This document shows, one piece after another, positions 22,735 through 34,933 of a stretch of DNA of 37,826 nt (position 1 is the stretch's first letter; every line of letters starts with the position of its first letter). The notes below the pieces were generated by a model that had not been told where the DNA came from, did not search any database, and saw only the letters and a list, made by a program, of their open reading frames with translations. This DNA comes from an uncultured Clostridia bacterium. Lineage in GTDB: Bacteria > Bacillota > Clostridia > Christensenellales > Borkfalkiaceae. The DNA lies in contig CANRLK010000014.1 of NCBI GenBank assembly GCA_947631465.1, positions 1-37,826 of the forward strand, written 5' to 3'. Position numbers and translations under genes: made by a program.

Positions 22735-24702
22735 ATGACGCTACAATGGCTGCTTCCCATCGGCTTTTTGGGGCTGCTCGGGATCGGCATTCTCCTACTC
22801 ATCTATATCATCAAGCCGAGCTATCAAAAGAGGGTGATCTCATCCTCTTATGCTTGGCAGCGGGTGCTCAAACGGCGAAAGGAACTTCCGATCGACCGCT
22901 TCCGCAATATCTTGCTCTTTCTCGTGCAGGCGCTCATTTTGGCGGCGTGCGCCTTGATCTTTGCGCAGCCCAATCTGATGTCGCCCGAGATGATCGACAC
23001 GGCGTATGAAAAGCTCATCGTCATCGACGCGTCGGCGAGCATGCGGGCGCGCTATGCGGGCGATCCGCAGGGACAGACCCGTTTCGACCGCGCGCTCGAC
23101 GAAGTTCGTATCGCGATGGACGACGTCGTCATGAGGGGGGACGGCTTGCTCTCGGTGATCGTCGCGGACGAAGAGCCTTACTATCTCATCGACCGCATGG
23201 ACAAGAGCGGCTATGCGGACGCGATCGCCTCGCTCGAAGGCTTGTCCTGTTCCTACGGGCACGGCAGCGTCGATAAGGCGTTGGAGCTTGCGCGCGACAG
23301 AGTGTACAATGCCTCGACGGACGTCATCGTGTATTCGGGCACGGAGTACGGCGACATGGGCGCGGCGATCGAGTGCGTCAATCTTGCCGACCCGCTCAGA
23401 GAGTGGAACGTCTGCGTGGCGGGCTGCGACGTCGTCGACGAGGACAACGAGTTCGTGTTCCGTATCGAACTTTGCGCGTACGGCACGGTCTCGATGAACA
23501 AGATGATGACGGTGCGGATCAAGGGTGCGGACCTCGGCGCGGAGGAGCTCTCCGACCTTCCCGCCCTGACGATCCCCGTCCATTTCGAAGTCAACGCGGA
23601 GAGCGCGGGCTATGAACAGCGGCAGACGATCGAAGTCAAGGCGACCGACGAGTCGATCGGCGGCAGAGCGGATTTCTATTATTCCTCCTTCCAAGAGGCG
23701 GTGATCCGCGTCGAGGGACTGGAAGATTCCATCGCCGACGACGATGCAATGACCGTCTACGGCGGCATTAAGGACGTCATCAACGTGCAGTATTGCAGCG
23801 GGGAGACCAACGTCTTTTACTATCTCGGCTTTACCATTTTGCGCGACGCCATGCGCGCCATGCGGGACATCTCCTTCAAGCAGCTCGACGTGGAGGCGAC
23901 CCCCGAACTTTCGGGGTATGACCTCTATATCTTCGAGCACCGCATTCCCGACGCCGTGATCGCGTTCGGCTTGCCGACGGACGGCGTGATCTTGCTCGTC
24001 GATCCCAACCGCGACCTCGACGAGCTTGGACTCAAATTCGGCGACAAGGTCACTTTTAACGAGATGAACCCCATGCGGGGCGGCGAGGCGCATCCGCTCA
24101 CCCAATACATCGACCCCGCGCGGAACGGCATTTCCGAGTATACGCGGATCATGGAGTACGATTCGAGCTTCACGCCTCTTCTCTATTGCGGAGACGACCC
24201 CGTCCTGCTTTGCAAGAACACGCCCTCGTCGAAGATCGTCGTCATGCCGTTCTCGCTCAACATGTCCGACTTCATCTCCTGGGATTTCGAGACGCTTTTA
24301 TACAACATCATCGAGTACTTTTTCCCGCTCACGGTCACGAAGTACAACTATGAGCTCGGGGACACGCTCACCTTGAACTGCAAGGGGGAGTCGCTCGTCA
24401 TTGCGAACGACTTTACGTCCTACGTCATGCGGACCTTCCCGACCGAGCTCGTGTTGGACAGGCTCGGGGCGTATTCGTTCACGGTGCACTCGGGGCTTCA
24501 AAAAGAGGACGAAGTGCGCAAGATCATGGTGCGCATTCCCCATTCCGAGAGCGCGATCTTTTCGGTCGCCGACGTGAAGATCACCCTCGACAGGGGCGAG
24601 ATCTATGCGGAGACGGTCAAAGACCTGTTCCCGTACTTTGCGATCGCCGTCATCGTCATGCTCTTTGTCGAATGGTGGCTGCAATTCAGAAACGAGGCAT
24701 AA
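22735..24702 (+). CDS. BatA-type membrane protein with von Willebrand factor A domain
   Basis: 655 residues. The N-terminal BatA-like module has membrane segments at about 4-25 and 58-78 joined by a basic loop (WQRVLKRRKELP). A VWA domain follows, with the metal-ion site IDASASM (D98, S100, S102) and later STDVIVYSG. The middle and C-terminal part (about 250-630) is extracytoplasmic and ends in a membrane segment at about 634-651 (FPYFAIAVIVMLFVEWW). Related proteins belong to MoxR/VWA operons (the BatABD type), where they serve complex assembly or stress tolerance. The ribosome site (GGGGTG) is weak, 4 nt before ATG 22735. It is followed 3 nt downstream by the double-VWA protein, probably its partner. 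Confidence 0.88.
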   Translation: MTLQWLLPIGFLGLLGIGILLLIYIIKPSYQKRVISSSYAWQRVLKRRKELPIDRFRNILLFLVQALILAACALIFAQPNLMSPEMIDTAYEKLIVIDASASMRARYAGDPQGQTRFDRALDEVRIAMDDVVMRGDGLLSVIVADEEPYYLIDRMDKSGYADAIASLEGLSCSYGHGSVDKALELARDRVYNASTDVIVYSGTEYGDMGAAIECVNLADPLREWNVCVAGCDVVDEDNEFVFRIELCAYGTVSMNKMMTVRIKGADLGAEELSDLPALTIPVHFEVNAESAGYEQRQTIEVKATDESIGGRADFYYSSFQEAVIRVEGLEDSIADDDAMTVYGGIKDVINVQYCSGETNVFYYLGFTILRDAMRAMRDISFKQLDVEATPELSGYDLYIFEHRIPDAVIAFGLPTDGVILLVDPNRDLDELGLKFGDKVTFNEMNPMRGGEAHPLTQYIDPARNGISEYTRIMEYDSSFTPLLYCGDDPVLLCKNTPSSKIVVMPFSLNMSDFISWDFETLLYNIIEYFFPLTVTKYNYELGDTLTLNCKGESLVIANDFTSYVMRTFPTELVLDRLGAYSFTVHSGLQKEDEVRKIMVRIPHSESAIFSVADVKITLDRGEIYAETVKDLFPYFAIAVIVMLFVEWWLQFRNEA

Positions 24703-24705
24703 ATC

Positions 24706-27558
24706 ATGACTGATTTCAAAGTTGAATTTGCTTGGAGCCCATGGCTGCTCCTTTTGATCATCCCCGCGCTCGCCTATATCCTGTTCGTGTACTTCCGCGT
24801 GGAGAAGAAATTCCGCCGCCTCGGCAAGCGCAGGGCGTCGCTCGTCCTTCATATCATCATTTCGATTCTCTGCATTGTCGCGCTTTCGGGGATCAATTTC
24901 TCTTGGTCGACGGACGAAGTCGAAAACCAGCTCGTCATTTTGGTAGACTGTTCGTACAGCGAACAGAGCTCGCGCGAACGGGCGGACGGGTTCGTGCACG
25001 ACGTCATCGCGGCGAACAACGGAAAATGCGACTTTGCCGTCGTGAAATTCGGGTTCGATCAAGTGCTTGCCGTCAAGATGGGCTCGCACCGCGTGGAATC
25101 GTCCTTTGAGGACTACCTTGAATCGGACGAACCCGACACGACTGCGACCGACATCCGCTCTGCGCTCACCTATATTTGGGACCCCGTGACAAAGAAGAGC
25201 GGGGGAGATACGAACGAGCCGATCATCTCCGACCCCAAGACCGCGCGGGTGCTGCTCATTTCGGACGGGCTTCAAACCGACCGCGACGCGATGAGCGTTG
25301 CGCGGCTCATGGCGCTCGACGGGCTGCGGCTCGACACCTCGTTCTTCCCCGCAAACTACCCGCAGGACGCTTGGATCGTCGATGCGACCTATCCCGAAAA
25401 GACCTTCGACGTGGGCGAATCGTTCGACATCGAAGTGACCGTCCACAGTTCCTATAACGGGACGTTCGGCTTGAATTTCAGCGACAACGGCGACGTCAAG
25501 TTCCGCCGTGATGAAATGGAACTCAAAGCGGGCTTGCAAAAGGTCAAGATCTCGCATTCCTTCGAGACGTCGGGGCATCACGAGCTAAAATTCGGCATGA
25601 CGAGCAGCGGCGATTCCACCTTGGAGAACAACGTCTTTTATACGACCTACGACCTCGAAGAGTTCAACAGCATTTTGGTCGTCGAGCGGTACGAAGGGGA
25701 GGCGGATAGCATTGTAAAGATCTTGAACAGCCGCCCCGACGCAAAGTATCTGACGATCAAGGTCGTGGGGCTCGAAGCCGTCCCGACGACAATCGAAGCG
25801 CTCTCGGAGTTCGACGAGGTCATCCTCGTAAATGTCGCGCACCATGATATGCCCGCGGGGTTTGAGGATCTGCTCTATGAATATGTCTACAACTGCGGCG
25901 GGGGACTGTTCACGGTCGGCGGATTCGAGAAGAACAGCGAGGGCGGCGTGCTCACGAAGAAGAACAAGGAGGGGGCGGACGTGCCGGTCGCGCACGCCTA
26001 TGACGCCGCCGATTTGCAGGGCACGAAATTGCAGGAGATGCTGCCCGTCAAGATCGAGGAGTATTCCCCGCCGACCGCGCTTGCGATCATCATCGACCGT
26101 TCGGCGTCGATGGAACAGCACCAGGAAGCGCCGTTTGAAGTTGCGCTCGAAGGCGCGCTCGCCGCAGTGGATACGATGTCGCCCAAGGACTTTGTCGGCG
26201 TGATGACGATGAACAATTCCTACCACGTCGAGCTCGATCTCACGCCCATGACCCAAAAGAGCAAGATCGTTGACGCGATCTACCGCGTTGCGGACGAGGT
26301 GGGGGGCTCGAACAGCGAGACGGCATCGATCGAACACGCCTGCCGCGCGCTTGCCGCCATGCGGAGCGTCGAAAAGAAGCACGTCATGCTCATCACAGAC
26401 GGACGCCCCGGCGACCCCGCAAGGGACTATCAAGCCGTCATGCAAAAATATTACGACGAGTTTGGCATCACCATCACGGTCATCTCGGTGCTCGATCCCA
26501 TCATTGAGGATCTCAAAGTGCTTGCGGAGATCGGGCACGGCGGGGCGTATCAAATTACGTCCAACCTCAAACAAGAGCTGCCGTTCCGCTTAAAACGCGA
26601 CCTCGGGATGTCCGAGGAGTTCTCGGGTGCAGTGCCGATGGAATACAAACCGACGCTCAACACCCATACGGCCGTCGTGAACAAGCTCACCCAATCCATG
26701 CTCGACGAAATTGACATGACGGGTTTCTTCGTCTCGCGCGTCAAAAATTCGAGCGTGCAGGTCTCGCTCATGGCGGCATTTGTGCCGCTGTATGCGCAGT
26801 GGAACTTCGGCGCAGGCAAGGTCGGCAGCTTCATGTGCGACCTGTTCGGGTATTTTTCTGGTCCGTTCACCGAAAATGAGGACGCGGGCATTCCGATCGT
26901 CAACAACATCGTCTCCGCGCTCATGCCCGTGATCAACATCCAGGAGCATTCCCTGAACGTTCAATTTATCTATGATAATTACCGCACGCAGGCGAGCATT
27001 GACGGGTATAATTTCGATGCCGAGAGCGACAAAAAGCTCATTGCGTTCGTCGAAGCGCCGAACGGAGCGGTCGCGAAGTTCGATTTGAGCGAGCTTTCGA
27101 TCGGCGGCAACCGCTTCACGTTCGAGAATTTCGAGCCCGGTATCCACGTCGTCACGGTCATGAAAGTCCCCAAGTCCTACGACGTGCTATCAAGGGACGT
27201 CGGGAGCGCTTCGGACGTGCCATCGCGCTATGTGATGGCGATGATCCGAACCTATCGCGCATTCAGCTATTCCGAGGAGTTCGACTCTTCGCGCGATTCC
27301 TTTGACGAGGGACGATCGCTTCTCATCAACATCTCTTCAAACCCCGACGCGGAGGGCGAGGACAAACTCGTCGATTCCGCGGAGGAGTTCGCCTTCTCGA
27401 TCGTGAGCCTTCGCAAGTCCTTTGACCCGAGGTATCTCTTGATCGGCGCGGCGCTCGTCCTGTTCCTCATCGAGATCGCCGTGCGCAAGTTCCGCTTCAC
27501 GAGCTTTACGAAGTTCTTAGAGCGCATCGGGCTCAAAAAGAAAGAGAAGTCCGCGTAA
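24706..27558 (+). CDS. Large membrane protein with two von Willebrand factor A domains
   Basis: 950 residues. Membrane segments lie at about 10-27 and 44-60. The first VWA-like domain has LVDCSYSEQ (D81, S83, S85) and VLLISDGLQT. A beta-rich stretch (about 225-310) resembles adhesive Ig-like domains, followed by a glutamine-amidotransferase-like segment (about 320-415: ILVVERYEGEADSIVKILN... GGGLFTVGGF) as in other VWA membrane proteins. The second VWA domain has a full metal site, IIIDRSASMEQ (D464, S466, S468), and MLITDGRPGDP. The C terminus has a membrane segment (about 918-937) and basic tail. It starts 3 nt after the previous stop and closes the operon. VWA pairs of this kind bind partner proteins through the metal site; the partner is unknown. 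Confidence 0.88.
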   Translation: MTDFKVEFAWSPWLLLLIIPALAYILFVYFRVEKKFRRLGKRRASLVLHIIISILCIVALSGINFSWSTDEVENQLVILVDCSYSEQSSRERADGFVHDVIAANNGKCDFAVVKFGFDQVLAVKMGSHRVESSFEDYLESDEPDTTATDIRSALTYIWDPVTKKSGGDTNEPIISDPKTARVLLISDGLQTDRDAMSVARLMALDGLRLDTSFFPANYPQDAWIVDATYPEKTFDVGESFDIEVTVHSSYNGTFGLNFSDNGDVKFRRDEMELKAGLQKVKISHSFETSGHHELKFGMTSSGDSTLENNVFYTTYDLEEFNSILVVERYEGEADSIVKILNSRPDAKYLTIKVVGLEAVPTTIEALSEFDEVILVNVAHHDMPAGFEDLLYEYVYNCGGGLFTVGGFEKNSEGGVLTKKNKEGADVPVAHAYDAADLQGTKLQEMLPVKIEEYSPPTALAIIIDRSASMEQHQEAPFEVALEGALAAVDTMSPKDFVGVMTMNNSYHVELDLTPMTQKSKIVDAIYRVADEVGGSNSETASIEHACRALAAMRSVEKKHVMLITDGRPGDPARDYQAVMQKYYDEFGITITVISVLDPIIEDLKVLAEIGHGGAYQITSNLKQELPFRLKRDLGMSEEFSGAVPMEYKPTLNTHTAVVNKLTQSMLDEIDMTGFFVSRVKNSSVQVSLMAAFVPLYAQWNFGAGKVGSFMCDLFGYFSGPFTENEDAGIPIVNNIVSALMPVINIQEHSLNVQFIYDNYRTQASIDGYNFDAESDKKLIAFVEAPNGAVAKFDLSELSIGGNRFTFENFEPGIHVVTVMKVPKSYDVLSRDVGSASDVPSRYVMAMIRTYRAFSYSEEFDSSRDSFDEGRSLLINISSNPDAEGEDKLVDSAEEFAFSIVSLRKSFDPRYLLIGAALVLFLIEIAVRKFRFTSFTKFLERIGLKKKEKSA

Positions 27559-27680: not shown

Positions 27681-27697
27681 CAGTAGACAATAAGTTT

Positions 27698-27727
27698 GGC
27701 GCGCCCCATTCGGGGCGCGCCGCTTTT
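27698..27727. terminator. Bidirectional terminator between the envelope operon and the PadR fusion gene
   Basis: GGCGCGCCCC (27698-27707) pairs perfectly with GGGGCGCGCC (27712-27721), loop ATTC, then GCTTTT on the plus strand. On the minus strand it is followed by AAACTTATT. It serves two convergent genes. Confidence 0.88.
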
Positions 27728-27746: not shown

Positions 27747-30700
27747 TCAATCGTCGTCGTTCGGGCGGATCAACAGGTAGTAGACAACGCCGAATACGAT
27801 GATGTTCAGGAAGAATCCCGCGGGGAAGATGATGTAGGTCATGAGATCGTTGATGCTCGTAAAGTCGATCTGCGTTGCGAGCGCATAGATCAAGATCACG
27901 ATGAGGATTAACGCATAAGTGACGATCACGTTGACGATCATATTTCCCGTCTGTCTCAGCGCGCGCTCGCCGTAGCGGTTGATGAACATCAACGCCGTCA
28001 CGAGCAGCAGTGCAAGCCCCGCGCCCCAGATAAAGAAGGAGTAGAAGATGGGAAGATGGAAGGTTCGCCTCAGTCCCAACGCAAGACTGCCTTCGGCGAC
28101 GCAGAGCAGGAACACCATCAAGGCGCTCAAAAAGAGGGCGCGTCCCTTGTTGACAAGACTGTCCGACTTCACCGTGAGCTCTTTGGTCTTGCTCCCGCCT
28201 GCAAGTGTGATCAAAATGCCGTCCTGGCGTGCCCGCTCTTCGAGATCATAGAAGTCGATCCCGTCCACCGAACGGGCAGAGCGCGCCTTTTCGCGCTTTC
28301 CCGTCTCCCGCTTCTCGTCCGCTATGGGCTGGATCGGGGGCGCTGCGGGTTCGGGCTGCGCCGCCTGCGGCTGCGGGGGATAGGGGGGCTCGGAGGTACG
28401 CACGGGAATCGTATCCTGCGGCTCATCAGGGAGCTGGTATACGCAATAGGTTTGTCTGTCGACAAGGGGGGGAGGCGGGGTCGGCTCTTCGCCGCGCTTT
28501 GCCGAAACATAGATGCGCGTAAGCGGAGCGCGGAAGTCGTCTTGCGGCGCTTCATAAGCCGCCTCTTCGGGTTGCGGCGCGCCATCCTGGTAGTTCTGCG
28601 CCTCACCGCCGAGATTGTTGACAATGTGCCGCATGTTCGTCTCCAAAAGATCGAACTCCCTGCGGCGGAACTGCTCTTCGTCTTGGCGGCGCACTTCCTT
28701 GATCTTCTGCTCCATTTCGAGGTCGTGACGGCGGTTGAGCTCGTCGATCTCCTGCCGATGCCGCTCCTCGATCTCTTCGCGCTCCTTCGCAAACGGTCCC
28801 ATTCTCACGATGCGCTCGTTCTGCTCGCTCTTTTGCGCGTTCTGCGCGATAGAACGGCTGCGCCCGATCTCATCGTCCTGGGCAAACGCCTCATCTGTTC
28901 CCGCCTCTTCTTCAAGACGAGCCTCTTCCGCACGCCGCGCTTCTTCGGCTCTTCTTTCTTCTTCCTCTTGACGGGCGCGCTCCTCTTCGAGCCGCTGGGC
29001 TTCCGCCCTGAGCCGTTCTTCTTCGGCTTCCGCTTCAAGGCGAAGCCGCTCTTCTTCGGCTTTTCTCGCCTCTTCTTCAAGACGAAGCGCCTCGGCTTCT
29101 TCTTCGGCTTTTCTCGCCTCTTCTTCAAGACGAAGCGCCTCGGCTTCTTCTTCGGCTTTTCTCGCTTCTTCCGCTTCCGCCTCTTGGCGAAGTCGTTCTT
29201 CTTCCTCTTGACGGCGGGCTTCTTCGGCGCGGAGACGGTCTTGTTCGAACTGACGGATCTCCGCCATTTGGACCATGAAGGCGTGCGCCTTTTCCTCTTC
29301 CTCGCGCTTTGCGATGAGGGCGGCGATCGCCCGTTCGCGCTCTTCTCGGCTCGCTTCTTCCTGCGCCTGAGCGATGGTGCGCTCATGCTCTTCGAGCGCG
29401 GCTTGTTCTTCTTCCGCCTGCTGCCGAGCTTGTTCTTCCGCCTCTTGCTTTAAGCGAAGCTCTTCGGCTTCGGTTTCGGCTTGAAGGCGGGCCTCTTCCT
29501 CCTCGCGGGCGGCTTCTTCCGCCAATCGTGCCTCTTCTTGAAGTTCGCGCTCATGCGCCTCTTCCTCGCGAAGCCGCTCGGCTTCCTCGGCGGCGCGCTT
29601 TTGCTCTTCTTCGAGATTTTTGAGACGCTCCGCTTCCGATTCAAGGAACTGCCGCTGTTCTTCGGCTTCGCGCTCTCTGCGCTCCTGTTCGGCTTGCAGC
29701 GCAAATTCCCGCTCCAAGAGCTCCTGTTCGCGGCGCGCGCCCGCCTCTTCGCGGATGCGGATCATCTCTTCGCGGGCGTTCATCGCCTCTTCCATCCGCG
29801 CACGCGCTTCTTCGAGCGCAGCGCGCTCCGCCTCGTATTTTTCGTCCTGTTCGGGCGCAGGCGTCGGCTCTTCGCGCACCTCTTCCTCGAAGGGCATGTC
29901 CTCGCCGTCGTATTCGAACTCCTCGTCCTCTTCGCCCGTGCCGCGCGCAGGCGAGACGCTCTTTTTGAGCACCCGCATATCGACGGACGTGGGCGCGGGA
30001 GAACCGAAATCAAACGCCTTGTCCGAAATGAGGGAATCGATGACCGTGCGCGAGTACTCCCATTCCGATTGGTTGCGCTCGGAGATCTCCTTGCCCTGGT
30101 CGGTGAGGGAGAAGTACTTGCGCCTGCCCCCGCTGACCGACCCGCCCCAATACGAGGTGACGTAGCCCTCCTTTTCCAGCCGTTTGAGCGCGCTGTAAAG
30201 CGAAGGCTGTTTTAAGGTGTATTGATCGTGGCTCTTGCGCTCGATCTCGGCGATGATCTCGTATCCGTATTTGTCGCCGTCATAGAGCGCGCGCAAAATG
30301 ATCGTGTTGATGTGCCCGCGGATGAGATCGGAACTCACCGAATGATCGCGGTCCTTGTCCTCATCCTCTTGGGAAGTTTCCTGCTCCTCGGCATCGTCCG
30401 CTTGCGCCGCTTGAACTTGTTCGGGCGTCGGCGCTTCTTGCACGGTTTCTTGCGCTTCGGAAGATGGAAGCTTTTCGGCTTCCTCGGGCTCGTCGTCCGA
30501 TTGGTCGGAAGGAGCGAAGGCGGTCTCGTCCGAAGTGTTTGCAAGGTCGACGGGCTCTTCTTCCTCGTCGAAAGAGGTCGGCTCAAACGCTTCGGATTCT
30601 TCTTCCTCGTCCTTCCTTTCAAACGGGGTCGCCGTTTCCTCGGGCGCTTCTTCCTCCTCGTCGGGCTCGTCTACGGGCTCTTCCTCCTCGTCGGGCTCGT

Positions 30701-31262
30701 CGAACGGCGGTTCGACCGCTGCTTCGTCATCCGTCTCGGCGATGTCGCTCCAATCGCCCCGCGTGTAGGGGGCAAATGCGGGCGTGCCGATCGAGTCGTC
30801 TTTCTTCTCGGTCTCGGATTCGGATTTTTCGGATTCTTCGGGCTCTTCCGTTTCGTCCGCCGCCCCGAACACCGCGTTCACGGCAGGGGCTTCCGCAAGA
30901 TCCGAGGAAGGCTCGTCCGCCTCGTCGTCCGTTTCGTCCTCGCCATCCTGCGCTTGCGAGCGCACAAAGGCGCGCGGGGGAGAAGCGGGCGTCTTGGGGA
31001 AACGACGCTTTTTGTCGAGCATGAAATCGTCCTCGAAGGGATCGTCGTCCGAAGAGGGAATGGGCTCAAACGCCCGATCGCGCGCGTCAAATTCCTCGCC
31101 ATCCGTCTCGTCGGGCTCTTCGGACTCGTTCATTTCTTCGGTCACCTCGTCCGTTTCGCCGAAGGGGGAGTCCGACGGGAACTCTTCTTCGGGGTCGGTC
31201 TCTGGCGTGCCGTCAAAGGGCTCGTCCTCGTCCGAATCGTCGTTGAAAAAATCGTCTCTCAC
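27747..31262 (-). CDS. Membrane-anchored PadR-type regulator with long acidic and coiled-coil regions
   Basis: 1171 residues from a GTG start with AGGAGG 7 nt upstream. Residues 1-300 are disordered and extremely Glu/Asp-rich. Residues about 308-412 form a PadR winged helix: RGHINTIILRALYDGDKYGYEI, QPSLYSALKRLEKEGYVTSYW, SGGRRKYFSLTDQGKE. Residues about 460-900 are a charged coiled coil (Arg/Glu/Ala, with a 16-residue tandem repeat). After a Pro-rich part, residues about 1036-1165 contain four membrane segments, beginning FLSALMVFLLCVAEGSLALG, and the chain ends RPNDDD. Typical PadR proteins have 100-200 residues and are soluble. The operators at 31302 and 31357 suggest autoregulation. A signal sensed at the membrane and passed to the DNA-binding domain is an inference. 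Confidence 0.88.
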   Translation of the reverse strand: MRDDFFNDDSDEDEPFDGTPETDPEEEFPSDSPFGETDEVTEEMNESEEPDETDGEEFDARDRAFEPIPSSDDDPFEDDFMLDKKRRFPKTPASPPRAFVRSQAQDGEDETDDEADEPSSDLAEAPAVNAVFGAADETEEPEESEKSESETEKKDDSIGTPAFAPYTRGDWSDIAETDDEAAVEPPFDEPDEEEEPVDEPDEEEEAPEETATPFERKDEEEESEAFEPTSFDEEEEPVDLANTSDETAFAPSDQSDDEPEEAEKLPSSEAQETVQEAPTPEQVQAAQADDAEEQETSQEDEDKDRDHSVSSDLIRGHINTIILRALYDGDKYGYEIIAEIERKSHDQYTLKQPSLYSALKRLEKEGYVTSYWGGSVSGGRRKYFSLTDQGKEISERNQSEWEYSRTVIDSLISDKAFDFGSPAPTSVDMRVLKKSVSPARGTGEEDEEFEYDGEDMPFEEEVREEPTPAPEQDEKYEAERAALEEARARMEEAMNAREEMIRIREEAGARREQELLEREFALQAEQERREREAEEQRQFLESEAERLKNLEEEQKRAAEEAERLREEEAHERELQEEARLAEEAAREEEEARLQAETEAEELRLKQEAEEQARQQAEEEQAALEEHERTIAQAQEEASREERERAIAALIAKREEEEKAHAFMVQMAEIRQFEQDRLRAEEARRQEEEERLRQEAEAEEARKAEEEAEALRLEEEARKAEEEAEALRLEEEARKAEEERLRLEAEAEEERLRAEAQRLEEERARQEEEERRAEEARRAEEARLEEEAGTDEAFAQDDEIGRSRSIAQNAQKSEQNERIVRMGPFAKEREEIEERHRQEIDELNRRHDLEMEQKIKEVRRQDEEQFRRREFDLLETNMRHIVNNLGGEAQNYQDGAPQPEEAAYEAPQDDFRAPLTRIYVSAKRGEEPTPPPPLVDRQTYCVYQLPDEPQDTIPVRTSEPPYPPQPQAAQPEPAAPPIQPIADEKRETGKREKARSARSVDGIDFYDLEERARQDGILITLAGGSKTKELTVKSDSLVNKGRALFLSALMVFLLCVAEGSLALGLRRTFHLPIFYSFFIWGAGLALLLVTALMFINRYGERALRQTGNMIVNVIVTYALILIVILIYALATQIDFTSINDLMTYIIFPAGFFLNIIVFGVVYYLLIRPNDDD
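29052..29165 (-). repeat. 48-bp tandem repeat inside the coiled-coil coding region
   Basis: Two nearly identical 48-bp units (29052-29099, 29100-29147) and the start of a third. They encode the 16-residue unit KAEEEAEALRLEEEAR. The number of units could vary between strains by slippage without breaking the reading frame. Confidence 0.85.
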
Positions 31263-31301
31263 TGAGTACCCTCCTTGTCATTTTTTCAGAAGTACAATAT
31301 C

Positions 31302-31323
31302 AAGTACTATATCTGACATAATT
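31302..31323. promoter_or_regulatory. PadR-like operator, copy A (downstream of the -10 box)
   Basis: 22-bp element AAGTACTAT-ATCT-GACATAATT, 20 of 22 identical to copy B at 31357. It holds the imperfect dyad TATATC-T-GACATA (31308-31320). It covers the last half of the -10 box and the transcription start of the PadR fusion gene, a position suited to repression. A partial third copy, AGTACAATATC, lies next to it at 31291-31301. Confidence 0.72.
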
Positions 31324-31349
31324 ATACAAGATTCGCCCGTCTTTGTCAA
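31321..31349 (-). promoter_or_regulatory. Consensus promoter of the PadR fusion gene
   Basis: Minus strand: TTGACA (31344-31349), 17-bp spacer, TATAAT (31321-31326). It lies exactly between operator copies A and B. Confidence 0.9.
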
Positions 31350-31356
31350 CGATATG

Positions 31357-31378
31357 AAGTACTATGTCAGACATAATT
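31357..31378. promoter_or_regulatory. PadR-like operator, copy B
   Basis: AAGTACTAT-GTCA-GACATAATT, a direct repeat of copy A, 55 bp away (start to start). Its core TATGTC-A-GACATA (31363-31375) is a perfect dyad. It lies 7 bp beyond the -35 box of the minus-strand promoter and about 36 bp before the -10 box of the divergent YkvI-like gene, so it could act on both. Confidence 0.72.
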
Positions 31379-31425: not shown

Positions 31426-32574
31426 ATGGGAGTTTTCGGAGCAACGGCATTCATCGTGGGGACGACGCTCGGCGCGGGATTTTTGTCGGGCGCGGAGCTC
31501 GTGTGCTTTTTCGGCGCGAAGTTTTTCCTGCCGTCCCTGCTGTTTTCCTTTGCGCTGTACTTTTTGTTGACGCTCAACTTTCTCCTGCTCGGAAAGCGGC
31601 ACGGCGGCTTTGACGGCGCGCTCTCGCGCTTCGGACGGGCGAAGGGGGCGGTCAAACTGTCCTTGACGTTTGTCTCCTTCGTGCCCTGTGCAGGGATGCT
31701 CGCGGGACTTGACGCGCTGCTTCCGAAGTTTTCGCCGCTCTTGTCCGTTCTCGGGCTTGTCCTTTGTCTGCTGTTTTTGAGAAAGGGGATGAAGGGGATC
31801 GGCGCGCTCAACTCTCTGCTCGTGCCCGTGCTCTTATGCTTTGTCTTTTTTGCGGCGCGGGGCGGGCTGGAATTTTTCTATCCGTCGTTGAGCGGCGTCC
31901 GACCGCTCGGCGGAATGTATGCGGGGATGAACGCATTGCTCGCCGCGCCCGTCTTGATGGATGCGGGCAAGACGATGAAAAAGCCCGTTCTTTCCTCGGC
32001 GCTTGCGTCGGCTCTTTCGGCGGTCTGCGCGGTGTGCGTGCTCGGCGTTGTCTACCGCGAGGGGGCGGGGGCGATCTTTGCAGAGCTCCCGTTTTTGTAT
32101 GCAATGCGGCAAAGCCGCGTCTTTTTCATCGCATCCGCGCTTGCCATTCTGACCTCGCTCGCCTCGGCGCTCTATCCGCTGCTTTCGATCTGCGAAAAGA
32201 TCCAAGGCAAGACAAAAAAGAACGCCGCAAAAGCGGTCTTGCTGCTTGCGGCGTTTGCCCTGTCGAGATTGGGCTTGCAGGGCATTGTGAAGTTTTTCTA
32301 TCCCGCGATGGGCGCGGTCGGGCTGATCTTTTCAGTTGTCTGTGTTTTTTACGAGTATTTTTTCAAGCAGAACGACCAAAAAGTACATGCCCGCGGCGAG
32401 CACGCAAAGGATGACGGTCGCACTCATCACGAGGTCGAGCTTGAACACCTGCCCGCCGTATACGATGAGGTAACCGAGCCCCGCGCGCGATACAAGGTAT
32501 TCGCCCATGATCGACCCGATCCAAGCCATGCCCACCGCCACTTTGAGCATCGAGATAAAGGCGGGCAGGGATGA
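31426..32574 (+). CDS. YkvI-like membrane protein (COG3949) with an antisense-derived tail
   Basis: 382-residue protein with about ten membrane segments in its first 312 residues. FIVGTTLGAGFLSGAELVCFFG matches the GAGFASGQE signature of YkvI, a family related to amino acid/sodium transporters with no proven substrate. The last membrane segment ends at FYEYFFKQ; the following 70 residues are rich in His, Arg, Glu and Asp and overlap the ABC permease gene on the other strand by 243 bp. That tail mirrors codons for the permease's membrane helices, so it probably arose by loss of the original stop. No ribosome site is seen, and the start lies 6 nt after a -10-like box. The start is set by the family N terminus. 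Confidence 0.8.
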   Translation: MGVFGATAFIVGTTLGAGFLSGAELVCFFGAKFFLPSLLFSFALYFLLTLNFLLLGKRHGGFDGALSRFGRAKGAVKLSLTFVSFVPCAGMLAGLDALLPKFSPLLSVLGLVLCLLFLRKGMKGIGALNSLLVPVLLCFVFFAARGGLEFFYPSLSGVRPLGGMYAGMNALLAAPVLMDAGKTMKKPVLSSALASALSAVCAVCVLGVVYREGAGAIFAELPFLYAMRQSRVFFIASALAILTSLASALYPLLSICEKIQGKTKKNAAKAVLLLAAFALSRLGLQGIVKFFYPAMGAVGLIFSVVCVFYEYFFKQNDQKVHARGEHAKDDGRTHHEVELEHLPAVYDEVTEPRARYKVFAHDRPDPSHAHRHFEHRDKGGQG

Positions 32575-33147
32575 GGGGATGACGAGCTTTTTTAAGATTT
32601 GGAACTTGCTCGCTCCCATCGACCTTAAAAGCAAGATCTTGTTCGGGTCGGTTTCGAGGAAGGCGGAGAGCATGTGCATGATGACGACGATGAGCCCGAC
32701 GGCGACGGTCATGAACACGATCGCCTTGCTTCCCGTGCCGAACCAAATGATGATCAAAGGACCTAAGGCGATCTTGGGAAGGGCGTTGAGGACGACGATA
32801 TACGGTTCGAGGACGCGGCGGCAAAGGTCGCTCCACCAAAAGGCGAGGGCGACGATACAGCCGACCGCAACGGCGATGAAAAAGCCGACAAACGTTTCGA
32901 GCAAGGTCACGCCGATGTGATAGAAGAGCGTGCCCTCTTTGTAGAGCGAGCCGATCGTCGAGAGGATGCGGGAGGGCGAGCTCGTCAAAAAGGGGTCGGA
33001 CCATCCGAGGCGGGTGGACAGCTCCCAGAAAAGGAGAAGAAAGAGGAGCAAGCCCACCCTCAGCGCTCGGACGATCGCGAGATCGATCCTTCGTTTTTTT
33101 AAGAAGAGCAAATGCTCTTTGGAGTAGTTTTTCTGATCTTTTTTCAT
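32332..33147 (-). CDS. ABC transporter permease, NitT/TauT (SsuC/TauC-like) type
   Basis: 271-residue inner-membrane subunit of an ABC importer. About six membrane segments are visible, with the coupling-helix signature SMGASKFQILKKLVIPSSLPAFISMLKVAVGMAW, which contacts the ATPase. LNALPKIALGPLIIIWFGTG is typical of the nitrate/sulfonate/taurine/pyrimidine-precursor group. The start at 33147 overlaps the ATPase stop (ATGA) and has GGAAGGAG 8 nt upstream; a longer reading frame upstream lies inside the ATPase gene and is not credible. The last 243 bp overlap the convergent YkvI-like gene, yet the protein ends normally (VLLEKILVKN). Last gene of the three-gene transporter operon. Substrate not predictable. 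Confidence 0.9.
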   Translation of the reverse strand: MKKDQKNYSKEHLLFLKKRRIDLAIVRALRVGLLLFLLLFWELSTRLGWSDPFLTSSPSRILSTIGSLYKEGTLFYHIGVTLLETFVGFFIAVAVGCIVALAFWWSDLCRRVLEPYIVVLNALPKIALGPLIIIWFGTGSKAIVFMTVAVGLIVVIMHMLSAFLETDPNKILLLRSMGASKFQILKKLVIPSSLPAFISMLKVAVGMAWIGSIMGEYLVSRAGLGYLIVYGGQVFKLDLVMSATVILCVLAAGMYFLVVLLEKILVKNTDN

Positions 33148-33881
33148 GCGTTGAGCTCCTTCCAAAGCAGTTCGAACCACTCGGAGAACTGTTTGTTTTC
33201 GCGGCGGCGAAGGGGATCGTTTTCCCCGTCGAAGCAAAGTTCGTGCTCGGCGGCGACGCGGGCGGGACGTTTGGTCAAGACGACGACGCGGCTCGCGAGC
33301 GAGATCGCCTCGGAGATGTCGTGCGTGACGAGAAGGGCGGTCTTGCCCTCGCTTCGGATGATCTTGGCAACGTCCTGCGTGACGAGAAGGCGGGTCTGGT
33401 AGTCGAGCGCGGAGAAGGGTTCATCCAAGAGGAGCACGTCGGGGTCGAAGGCGAGGGTGCGGATGAGCGCGGCGCGCTGCCGCATGCCGCCCGAAAGCTG
33501 CGACGGATAGCTCTGCAAAAATTCTCCGAGCCCGTACTTTTCGGCGAGCGTTCTTGCCCGCTCCAACGATTCGCTATCGAGCCTGTGCTGCACTTCGAGG
33601 GGCAGGCGGATATTTTTTTCGATCGTGCGCCAAGGGAAGAGCTCGTCGCGTTGGAGCATGTAGCCGATCGAGCCCCTTCGGGACACTTCGCCCTCGGACG
33701 GGGTCAAAAGCCCCGCCGCGAGGGACAAAAGGGTGCTTTTCCCGCAGCCCGAAGGTCCGATGAGGGCGACAAACTCGCCTTTCTCCACCGTAAAGGTGAG
33801 GTTTTCGGTCGCCGTCACCTCGCCCCGCACGGTATGATAGATGTGTTTTACGTCGTGAAACGACAGCATTTTTTCTTTCAT
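33144..33881 (-). CDS. ABC transporter ATP-binding protein, NitT/TauT type
   Basis: 245-residue ATPase that powers the importer. The Walker A motif GPSGCGKST (about 42-50), Q loop YMLQRDELFPWRT, signature LSGGMRQRAAL, Walker B VLLLDEPFSALD and the switch histidine in LLVTHDISEA are all intact. RDELFPWRT and FSALDYQTR are typical of the SsuB/TauB/ThiZ group. AAGGAAG lies 4 nt before ATG 33881. The gene follows the binding-protein gene after 53 bp and overlaps the permease start by 4 bp, so the three are one operon. Confidence 0.93.
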   Translation of the reverse strand: MKEKMLSFHDVKHIYHTVRGEVTATENLTFTVEKGEFVALIGPSGCGKSTLLSLAAGLLTPSEGEVSRRGSIGYMLQRDELFPWRTIEKNIRLPLEVQHRLDSESLERARTLAEKYGLGEFLQSYPSQLSGGMRQRAALIRTLAFDPDVLLLDEPFSALDYQTRLLVTQDVAKIIRSEGKTALLVTHDISEAISLASRVVVLTKRPARVAAEHELCFDGENDPLRRRENKQFSEWFELLWKELNA

Positions 33882-33934
33882 GGTACTTCCTTTGCGTCCG
33901 CGGCTTTGGTTCGGCGCGGAGAACGGTCATTTTC

Positions 33935-34933
33935 TCATTGAAGAGATGCGTACACTTCCTTTACATAGCGGTTGTCGACGAGCTTTTCAAACTCTCCGCG
34001 CTCGGGCAGTTCGCCCGCCTCTTCGATCACGTCCTGCAAGCGGTCGAAGCTCTCCTTCGTCATCGCCATATCGGTCGGCCAGGAGTCGATGGACTGATAG
34101 CTCTTGACGCTGGTTGCGATCGAGTTGAGCGAGGTGGACGGGAACGCCGCATAGAGCTTATCGGCGATGTCCTCGGGCGAGTTGTTCTGCGCGTATTTGA
34201 CGGCGCGGAGCATGGCGCGGAGAAAGCCCTTTGCAAGGTCCTCGTTCTTGTCGAGCCAGGAGCGTTTTGCGATGTATGAGGTGTAGGGGATGACCCCGCC
34301 CGCCTCGCCGACGGAGGCGACGATATAGCCCTTGCCCGCCGCCTGATATTCAGACGCGCCGGGTTCGAACATGGTGCAGTAGTCCGCGACGCCGCCCTCG
34401 AACGCGCTCGTCATGAGGTTGAAGGCGACGTCGAAGTTGAGGGTATAGTCCTCGGGGGTGAGTTGATGTTCTTTGAGGATGTATTCAAAGGTCATCGCGG
34501 GCACGCCGCCCTTTCTTCCCGCGAGGATCTCCTTGCCTTTGAGGTCTTCCCATTTGAAGTTGGGCTCTTCGTTGCGCGAGACGAGGAACGAGCCGTCCCT
34601 TTGGGTGAGCTGACCGAACACGGTCGGCACGTCAGCCGAGCCGCCGAGCAGGACATAGAGCGCGGCTTCGGGCCCGCAGAAGCCGATGTCCGCTTCGCCC
34701 GACAGCACGGCCGTCATGACCTTGTCTGCGCCGCCGCCGTTCGTGAGTTCGATCTTGATGCCTTCTTCCTCGAAATAGCCGAGGGAGTCGGCGAGATACA
34801 TGGGCGCATAGAACACGGAGTGGGTGACTTCGTTGATGCGCAGGGTATGAAGGTCGGTTTTATTTTCTCCGCAGGCGGAGAGGGGGAGCGTAGCGAAGAG
34901 CAGCGCTCCGAGAATGACGAATAATTTTTTCAT
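33935..34933 (-). CDS. ABC transporter substrate-binding lipoprotein, NitT/TauT (NMT1-like) type
   Basis: 332 residues. The signal peptide ends LPLSAC, with the lipidated cysteine at about 21, so the protein is anchored outside the membrane. The mature part has the type II binding-protein fold: RINEVTHSVFYAPMYLADSLGYFEEEGIKIELTN, then GEADIGFCGPEAALYVL and GRKGGVPAMTFEYILK. This group binds nitrate, sulfonates, taurine, riboflavin or thiamine precursors; no TPP or FMN riboswitch precedes the operon, so the ligand stays open. GGAG lies 7 nt before ATG 34933. First gene of the operon, divergent from valS. A plausible promoter is CTGACA (34971-34976), 17 bp, TAAATT (34948-34953) on the minus strand. 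Confidence 0.92.
   Translation of the reverse strand: MKKLFVILGALLFATLPLSACGENKTDLHTLRINEVTHSVFYAPMYLADSLGYFEEEGIKIELTNGGGADKVMTAVLSGEADIGFCGPEAALYVLLGGSADVPTVFGQLTQRDGSFLVSRNEEPNFKWEDLKGKEILAGRKGGVPAMTFEYILKEHQLTPEDYTLNFDVAFNLMTSAFEGGVADYCTMFEPGASEYQAAGKGYIVASVGEAGGVIPYTSYIAKRSWLDKNEDLAKGFLRAMLRAVKYAQNNSPEDIADKLYAAFPSTSLNSIATSVKSYQSIDSWPTDMAMTKESFDRLQDVIEEAGELPERGEFEKLVDNRYVKEVYASLQ

Follow-up and report, generated by a model that had tools for sequence, protein, structure and literature searches.

A conserved PadR–membrane fusion and its polar palindromes: a candidate terminus-binding system in Clostridia

FtsK and SpoIIIE combine four membrane segments and a long linker with a winged helix that reads the polar, terminus-directed KOPS and SRS sequences. 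The matS sites are not known to be oriented, and the MatP/matS system needs no polarity. MatP/matS of the E. coli terminus macrodomain and its Caulobacter counterpart ZapT are tied to the division machinery or the envelope (PMC8242196; here and below, statements on cited papers refer to the available part of each text). Among PadR proteins, cdPadR1 of Clostridioides difficile binds the promoter of its own gene at TACT(N11-12)AGTA repeats, and of the 200 sites predicted for it, about half lie within genes or between convergent genes (PMC5050560).

The window, i.e. the whole stretch of 37,826 nucleotides analyzed here, contains a PadR gene of a different form, and it is the only PadR match that the profile search found in the window's genome. 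PadR proteins are normally small, soluble and free-standing, with ca. 100–200 residues, while this one has 1171 residues and four membrane segments. Its host is a gut bacterium. The features of the locus are as follows.

27747–31262, minus strand: single frame of 1171 amino acids comprising PadR, a charged helix and four membrane segments; GTG start, stop at 27747–27749
31270–31275, minus strand: ribosome-binding site AGGAGG, 7 bases 5' of the GTG
31321–31349, minus strand: promoter TTGACA-17-TATAAT, 12/12 match
31360–31378: palindrome copy 5' of the -35 box, one mismatch to the degenerate consensus (TACTATGTCAGACATAATT)
31305–31323: second palindromic site, two mismatches; it overlaps the -10 box at its end as well as the likely start of transcription
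30345–31262, minus strand: residues 1–306, acidic low-complexity N-terminus, unconserved, 40% Asp/Glu
30003–30344, minus strand: residues 307–420, PadR winged helix and C-terminal dimer helix (Pfam part, residues 322–392, at 30087–30299)
28653–29852, minus strand: residues 471–870, long charged helical region (spacer); its length differs among species
28158–28652, minus strand: residues 871–1035, Pro-rich linker, then a short conserved stretch that precedes the membrane domain
27750–28157, minus strand: residues 1036–1171, membrane domain of four segments, to which no Pfam model matches clearly
27697–27722, strand not assigned: GC-rich hairpin 3' of the gene, a possible terminator by a pattern search yielding 10 matches vs 7.7 expected

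The ORF translation from the GTG at 31262–31260 on the minus strand has no internal stops, and the original prediction of a frame open and intact through low-complexity sequence holds for all 1171 residues. In the relatives' genomes, the PadR and membrane parts lie within one frame at all 29 orthologous loci and at 78 of 80 further loci, the remaining two being cut by contig ends; separate genes for the two parts were found at none of the 29. As the relatives carry the fusion in one frame, a sequencing error joining two genes is ruled out, and the predicted architecture, a PadR domain built into a 1171-residue membrane protein, is confirmed.

The PadR winged helix, predicted at about residues 308–412, agrees with the Pfam profile search, in which PF03551 (PadR) matches residues 322–392 (score 67.8 bits, cut-off 27), and with solved PadR proteins, which align at approximately residues 309–415 (1xma, E = 3.6e-26; 9qbc, E = 2.7e-25). 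Matches to NCBIfam PadR models do not reach the cut-offs of these models (TIGR03433, 71.5 of 101.8 bits). The domain is 82–92% identical in the other loci of the genus. The signature residues of the family are present, namely YGYE at helix 2, Tyr and Arg in the recognition helix, and Trp in the dimer helix, with the roles assigned after PMC3506622 and PMC5050560; Y332-G333-Y334, Y356, R361, and W401 are invariant in an alignment of 11 sequences. The Pfam search of the whole protein yielded only PadR and a sub-threshold match to DUF350; in particular, neither a MatP family match nor an ATP-driven DNA translocase domain was found.

The flanking parts are conserved to different degrees. The 300 acidic residues of the original prediction are present here (40% Asp/Glu in residues 1–306, net charge -103), but they lie outside the conserved design, as more than 150 residues precede the PadR motif in only 14 of the relatives' 80 frames (median 51, measured from the preceding stop codon). 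Judging by sequence, the acidic N-terminus is dispensable in most relatives. The predicted long coiled coil is recovered as a long charged helical stretch, residues 471–870 being 35% acidic and 20% basic, but its heptad periodicity is weak (phase fractions 0.23–0.37), and hence the region may for the most part form a single charged helix. The four membrane segments expected at the chain end correspond to hydrophobic segments at residues 1037–1055, 1076–1094, 1108–1126, and 1142–1160, identified by hydropathy only. Since a basic loop joins segments 2 and 3, both ends of the membrane domain are suggested to be cytoplasmic. A profile search of this domain against solved structures returned nothing useful (best E = 0.82), and for DUF1129 there are weak matches in three of the 11 membrane domains (best E = 0.007).

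The palindrome TACTATGTCWGACATAGTA, which is of the TACT-N11-AGTA type, flanks the promoter of the padR gene itself; such predicted inverted-repeat sites in the own promoter are as in the PadR family. The copy upstream of the -35 box recurs at the equivalent place in the same-genus orthologues listed, except for locus L015, where the gene start is misplaced. On one side, the palindrome has an asymmetric extra arm with the consensus TTTTGCATAG.

The sites are not limited to the promoter. We found 39 of them at up to two mismatches in the window's genome, compared with one PadR gene, which weakens a reading of the palindrome as an operator only; at up to three mismatches there were 41, vs 2 per strand for the reversed control. 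In this genome, many sites have an additional ∼30 bases in common on the side of the arm, and some sit in frame inside genes, while most sites in other genomes do not have the long flank. All 29 same-genus genomes searched carry sites, from 1 to 36 each, and the reversed control palindrome had no matches in 201 genomes of the family. Throughout the order, 27 of 151 genomes contain palindromes, and, among the matches listed, a PadR frame of 417 amino acids or more is present in at least 24 of these 27. For G307, with one palindrome, the matches listed contain a 113-residue PadR alone, and for G218 and G229, also among the 27, the PadR frames are outside the matches listed. As the order-wide reversed control gives one match in each of seven genomes, single palindrome matches should be treated as background. 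Families f3, f6, f8, f14, and f24 have the same fusion but no palindrome of the TACT-N11-AGTA type.

Contigs with the padR gene hold 68 of the 235 sites in 19 genomes against 15.0 expected, given genome sizes rounded to 0.1 Mb and fragmented MAGs throughout. This count leaves out G028, G066, and, due to incomplete site lists, G150 and G346; in G066, one of 11 sites is on the padR contig. In five of the 19 genomes, including that of the window (0 of 34), the padR contig carries no further site. The genomes G343–G348 were selected for a long or named PadR contig. On six PadR contigs of related species, again from fragmented MAGs, the sites cluster around a point at which the GC skew and the gene strand switch. 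The skew goes from plus to minus in all six contigs, and the gene strand turns there in five; in contig C6 of G155, the switch is at the contig edge only, and the gene-strand change is not clear. We infer that this switch point is the replication terminus. Because dnaA does not lie at a switch of the skew in either of two contigs checked, it was dropped as an origin marker, and the term "terminus" refers to the convergent switch itself. For the same reason, the absence of palindromes from the dnaA contig in the 15 genomes with whole site lists (G000, G009, G027, G028, G042, G055, G066, G075, G084, G117, G155, G170, G180, G190, and G200) says little. A search for dif with an approximate Bacillus subtilis query at up to eight mismatches found nothing.

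The orientation of the sites follows the same switch. With 65 sites scored, the arm points toward the presumed origin in 54 cases and toward the terminus in four, seven being tied, so that the arm flips at the switch point in 54 of 58 scorable sites; orthologous sites in different species are not independent, which makes P values look stronger than they are. Thus, as in RTP/Ter, polar sites have opposite orientation on the two chromosome arms. Gene direction partly confounds the orientation; outside codirectional contexts, the count is 12 vs 2 of 18 sites. In the window's genome, the respective counts are 28 vs 5 by local gene strand and 27 vs 5 by local skew. Many site positions are common to several species, some of them within spoIIIAE, dxs, and miaA, and at four in-gene sites the codon identity is higher than in the rest of the gene. 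Of the sites of the window's genome, 23 could be mapped, and 13 of them have a G343 site at most 400 bp away from the syntenic position (null 0.185); seven of its 24 site loci could be placed on none of the six PadR contigs.

Considering the fusion, the sites, their clustering, polarity, and shared positions, all computed here, we think it reasonably probable that these genomes encode a membrane-anchored terminus-binding system, MatP-like in place and RTP-like in polarity. The PadR domain would dimerize and bind the palindrome with the extra arm on one side, and dozens of such sites would flank the terminus on both sides over one to three hundred kilobases. The long charged helix would bridge the DNA to the four-segment anchor, presumably in the cell membrane, and, as it would reach from one to the other, the terminus region would be kept at the membrane, perhaps until division. 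The sites in the own promoter would set the protein amount through autorepression. Given that the arm keeps one orientation relative to replication on each chromosome arm, the bound complex probably discriminates replication forks or other tracking machines by direction.

The same polarity could also reflect a replication fork trap of the RTP/Ter or Tus/Ter kind, where bound sites admit forks to the terminus region and block their exit, the membrane anchor being secondary. The arm orientation flipping at the skew maximum (54 vs 4) would be expected then, RTP shares the fold and dimer arrangement with PadR-s2 proteins (PMC3506622), and the RTP and Tus genes bear a ter site in their own promoters, like padR here (PMC10331603). 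However, RTP and Tus are soluble proteins, fork arrest does not require a long helix or four membrane segments, and the protein has no RTP match in Pfam at E up to 1, making a fork trap rather unlikely.

We consider it still less likely that the protein is a one-chain membrane sensor and transcription factor, its membrane part serving to sense the envelope state and its PadR part to repress dozens of genes as a regulon. It would be a fused counterpart of the HAAS–PadR pairs, which link membrane proteins with PadR regulators (PMC11237479, where DUF1129, the weak match of three membrane domains, is tied to HAAS); yet none of the HAAS domains (DUF1700, DUF1129, and DUF1048) was found in the whole protein by Pfam at E up to 1. 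The sites in the own promoter agree with a sensor, and so do 30 of the 55 sites on the six PadR contigs, which are between codirectional genes, some sites being at most 100 bp from the next gene start. On the other hand, 13 sites are within genes and 11 between convergent genes, and the single site between divergent genes is the padR promoter itself; this context weakens a plain regulon, for which the clustering in one region and the polarity are also unexpected. The original prediction suggested that a membrane-tethered PadR would either hold its target DNA at the membrane or link the envelope state to transcription: the tethered form is real and conserved, and the site map favors the former role, while the latter fits the site positions poorly. 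That prediction did not extend to the sites, their clustering or their polarity. Finally, a dispersed repeat element like the Rickettsia palindromic elements, with an incidental link to PadR, would account for the in-frame sites and for the shared arm-side bases in the window's genome, but is very improbable, as site positions are common to other species, most sites elsewhere have no long flank, the palindrome is the padR promoter element throughout the genus, and the sites cluster at the terminus.

Returning to a membrane-anchored terminus system, we tentatively suggest, with a little less than even confidence, that it evolved from a PadR repressor into a membrane protein that anchors the terminus on polar palindromes and reads the replication direction, and that it is ancestral to several families of this Clostridia order. 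In open-licence full texts, we found neither a terminus-organizing protein of this kind reported in Bacillota nor a PadR protein reported as tied to the terminus. If true, a family known for drug- and stress-responsive repressors would have given rise to a chromosome architecture protein, with the terminus–membrane attachment, elsewhere usually indirect via the division machinery, contained in one chain. The terminus question becomes directly testable through the polar site array, and it bears on other PadR proteins, whose many predicted in-gene or convergent sites were taken for transcription sites.

Compared with the described systems, the predicted one resembles MatP/matS and ZapT, in which a single dedicated protein binds numerous short palindromes limited to the terminus: here, numerous short palindromes are strongly concentrated around the convergent skew switch of fragmented genomes, and one protein would bind them, but the protein family is unrelated, the protein has its own membrane anchor, and the sites are polar. 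FtsK and SpoIIIE also share the predicted four membrane segments, long linker, winged helix, and polar sites; here, the motor domain is absent, and the sites are palindromic and few. The HAAS–PadR dyads similarly couple PadR with a multi-segment membrane protein, but they consist of two genes rather than one chain (29 of 29 and 78 of 80 loci here), have a HAAS domain, for which only the weak DUF1129 matches in three of 11 membrane domains were seen here, and no terminus site array is described for them in the available part of PMC11237479. cdPadR1 belongs to the same domain family (PadR-s2) and has a TACT-N11/12-AGTA site type in its own promoter, but it is a free-standing PadR with no membrane part, described as a transcription regulator (PMC5050560). 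RTP of Bacillus subtilis is small, soluble, and matched by no model here, and the PadR sites are far more numerous in some species; still, RTP is a winged-helix dimer arranged as in PadR-s2 (PMC3506622), and its Ter sites, like the sites described here, are polar, have opposite orientation on either side of the terminus, and occur in the promoter of its own gene (PMC10331603).

The minus-strand padR gene of the window has a good ribosome site and a sigma-70 promoter with a 12/12 match. Its product and the domain found in it are as follows.

31262-27747, minus strand: open frame, 1171-residue PadR membrane protein
Residues 322-392 of this protein: PadR domain (Pfam)

Solved PadR proteins (e.g. 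1xma, 9qbc) align over about residues 309-415, and the DNA-binding and dimer residues, which are the ones highlighted in excerpts of PadR structural papers, are present and invariant in all 11 aligned relatives. Outside this domain, the protein comprises an acidic N-terminus, a 400-residue charged helix, a Pro-rich linker, and four hydrophobic segments. The Pfam domain and the four segments bear out the original prediction of a PadR winged helix built into a 1171-residue membrane protein. For the membrane domain, the Pfam search yielded no convincing relative, and the search of solved structures yielded none. Two large membrane proteins, the second with von Willebrand factor A domains (Pfam), adjoin the gene on the plus strand (22735-27558). 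Upstream of it are three minus-strand genes (32332-34933) which presumably resemble a nitrate/sulfonate-type ABC transporter, that is, a permease, an ATPase, and a binding protein; the neighbours of this trio are found beside the PadR gene in the contigs of six out of six relatives.

A sequencing error joining separate PadR and membrane genes can be dismissed, as both parts lie in one frame at 29 of 29 orthologous loci and, among the best 80 loci of relatives found by name (MAGs of Clostridia, three titled Candidatus Gallimonas), four segments follow PadR in one frame at 78, the other two being cut off where their contigs end. In the wider order, all 16 long PadR frames at the fetched loci (two of them from the same family) finish in hydrophobic segments at the C-terminus; where only two segments are present, in four frames, the locus end truncates the frame. 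Judging by these sequences, the PadR-membrane fusion is real and old. The predicted architecture was conserved as regards PadR and the membrane segments, but the 300-residue acidic N-terminus showed no conservation among the relatives. At same-genus loci, identity to the window's protein is 82-92% in the PadR domain versus 41-62% in the membrane domain, which makes the DNA-binding surface the part under the tightest constraint.

Upstream of the same-genus orthologues compared, a palindrome of the form TTATGTCTGACATAGTACTT lies just before the -35 box, the exception being L015, a locus whose gene start was misplaced by our script. The window contains two copies, versus none expected from shuffles.

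31360-31378: palindrome copy 1, on one side of the PadR promoter
31305-31323: palindrome copy 2, on the other side of the PadR promoter

The full palindrome, TACTATGTCWGACATAGTA, is a TACT-N11-AGTA predicted site at the gene's own promoter, and in this it is similar to the TACT(N11-12)AGTA repeats that C. difficile cdPadR1, in the text available, binds in its own promoter (PMC5050560). The window's genome (92.65% complete) yielded a single PadR match.

With up to three mismatches, this genome has 41 matches per strand versus two for the reversed pattern, a palindrome match being counted on both strands; with up to two mismatches, there are 39 palindrome sites. In the family search, sites were found in 29 of 29 same-genus genomes (1 to 36 each), and the reversed control pattern was absent from all 201 genomes. 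Where strict sites are few, a species may carry weaker ones that escape the search pattern. Across the order, palindrome sites are present in 27 of 151 genomes (families f1, f18, f19, f20, f30, and f32); the reversed control had a count of 1 in 7 genomes. Among the matches listed, at least 24 of the 27 genomes have a PadR frame of 417 aa or more, and G307, with one site, has a short PadR only. Families f3, f6, f8, f14, and f24 have long PadR frames and, in the same pattern search, no such palindrome; hence any PadR site in these families has a changed sequence. An AGTATTA-like half is retained ahead of the -35 box in some of these families. At six loci of other families of the order (L061, L063, L040, L066, L064, and L068), the long PadR gene has an AGTATTA- or ATAGTAT-like element immediately ahead of its -35 box; this element may be the altered site recognised by the PadR membrane proteins of those families.

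The sites cluster on the contig of the PadR gene. Leaving out the gene's own promoter sites, it carries 68 of 235 sites in 19 genomes versus 15.0 expected by its share of sequence; 14 genomes are above the expectation, and five, including the window's own, have no other site on this contig. The same bias is seen in another family, f19, where 4 of 5 non-promoter sites (G316) and 3 of 4 (G284) share a contig with the long PadR gene. All six PadR contigs of related species that were joined from fetched segments show a plus-to-minus switch of GC skew, and the coding strand turns together with it in five; in G155 C6, the switch is at the contig edge only. Such a switch with convergent genes has the look of a replication terminus. 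In the two contigs read, dnaA is not at a GC-skew switch (G155 C4, about 42 kb; G075 C1, about 175 kb), and so the origin may not adjoin dnaA in these bacteria. For 17 of the 24 site loci fetched from the window's genome, the neighbours recur in one or more of the six contigs; for the other seven, and for two loci that lack good sites, they do not.

The sites are also polar. With the sites oriented according to replication arm, the outer arm reads TTTTGCATAG on the side of the presumed origin, and the opposite side is unconserved. The better arm is on the origin side in 54 of 65 sites and on the terminus side in four, with seven ties (58 versus 5 and eight ties with own promoter sites included); at 18 sites whose neighbouring or containing genes do not all follow replication, the ratio is 12 to 2. 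In the window's genome, site orientation agrees with the majority gene strand (28 versus 5) and local skew (27 versus 5), and the same holds for further contigs in four relatives (31 versus 9 and 30 versus 6), although the sites counted are related by descent and so not independent. The window's genome has about 30 further arm-side bases common to many sites, more than other species. This longer flank, roughly GAAATCTCGTTTTTCGGCGTTTTGCATAG, seen at many sites in loci L081-L104, resembles a piece of a dispersed element, and the window contains no match to the flank pattern by itself.

Site positions are partly shared between species: for 13 of 23 own sites mapped onto G343 C1, a site lies no more than 400 bp from the corresponding position, versus 18.5% for random places in the same loci. 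A variant with TACTATGCGTGACATA replacing TACTATGTCWGACATA recurs at shared positions (e.g. 15144, 148547, and 175265 in G343 C1) and may form a second site class. Some sites lie inside genes, namely, spoIIIAE, dxs, miaA, and those of an HI0933-like oxidoreductase and a penicillin-binding protein. At same-amino-acid positions, codon identity in the site versus the rest of the gene is 19/28 versus 0.48 and 21/25 versus 0.48, and for two further sites 12/12 versus 0.55 and 9/9 versus 0.58, these genes being chosen for having a site, which biases the comparison towards conservation. In miaA, the palindrome is kept while seven adjacent residues come and go; in the HI0933-like gene, two species with quite different codons have no site. 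Four in-gene sites (L096:11109, L088:3060 and 9349, and L103:1511) are read in one frame as HSTMSDI or HSNMSDI, and hence the DNA site gives the same short peptide to the unrelated HI0933-like oxidoreductase, SpoIIIAE, DXP synthase, and MiaA.

Among 55 sites (up to two mismatches) in the six contigs, 30 are codirectional intergenic, 13 in-gene, 11 convergent, and one, the padR promoter in G165, divergent. The 39 sites of the window's genome include 22 codirectional, nine inside called genes, six convergent, one divergent, and one at an open end; genes were called with a simple codon model, and individual assignments may be in error. Where a codirectional site is close to a gene start, an effect on transcription is possible. 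Still, because the predicted sites crowd the presumed terminus and rarely lie between divergent genes, the PadR membrane protein most likely holds the terminus region at the membrane, its PadR dimer being the part that would keep the DNA there. A tether would not call for polarity, and this feature points towards interactions with forks or translocases that depend on direction. The chief rival reading is a fork trap, either combined with a tether or on its own, since PadR-s2 proteins are described, in the portion of the paper available, as having the topology and dimer form of RTP, the B. subtilis fork-arrest protein (PMC3506622), and since RTP and Tus, by a similarly partial source, have a site in their own promoters, as does the PadR gene here (PMC10331603).

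In open-licence full texts, we found no report tying PadR to the terminus or chromosome architecture, and none with PadR together with the 13-base palindrome core. As to the membrane-tether reading, terminus tethers, MatP and ZapT, have arisen from unrelated proteins, according to the accessible part of one account (PMC8242196). HAAS-PadR pairs, as far as the available text goes, are a precedent for the coupling of PadR with membrane proteins, by separate genes there, unlike the one chain here (PMC11237479). The PadR array would belong with the terminus-site systems, and there is a fair chance that it is a new kind of system.
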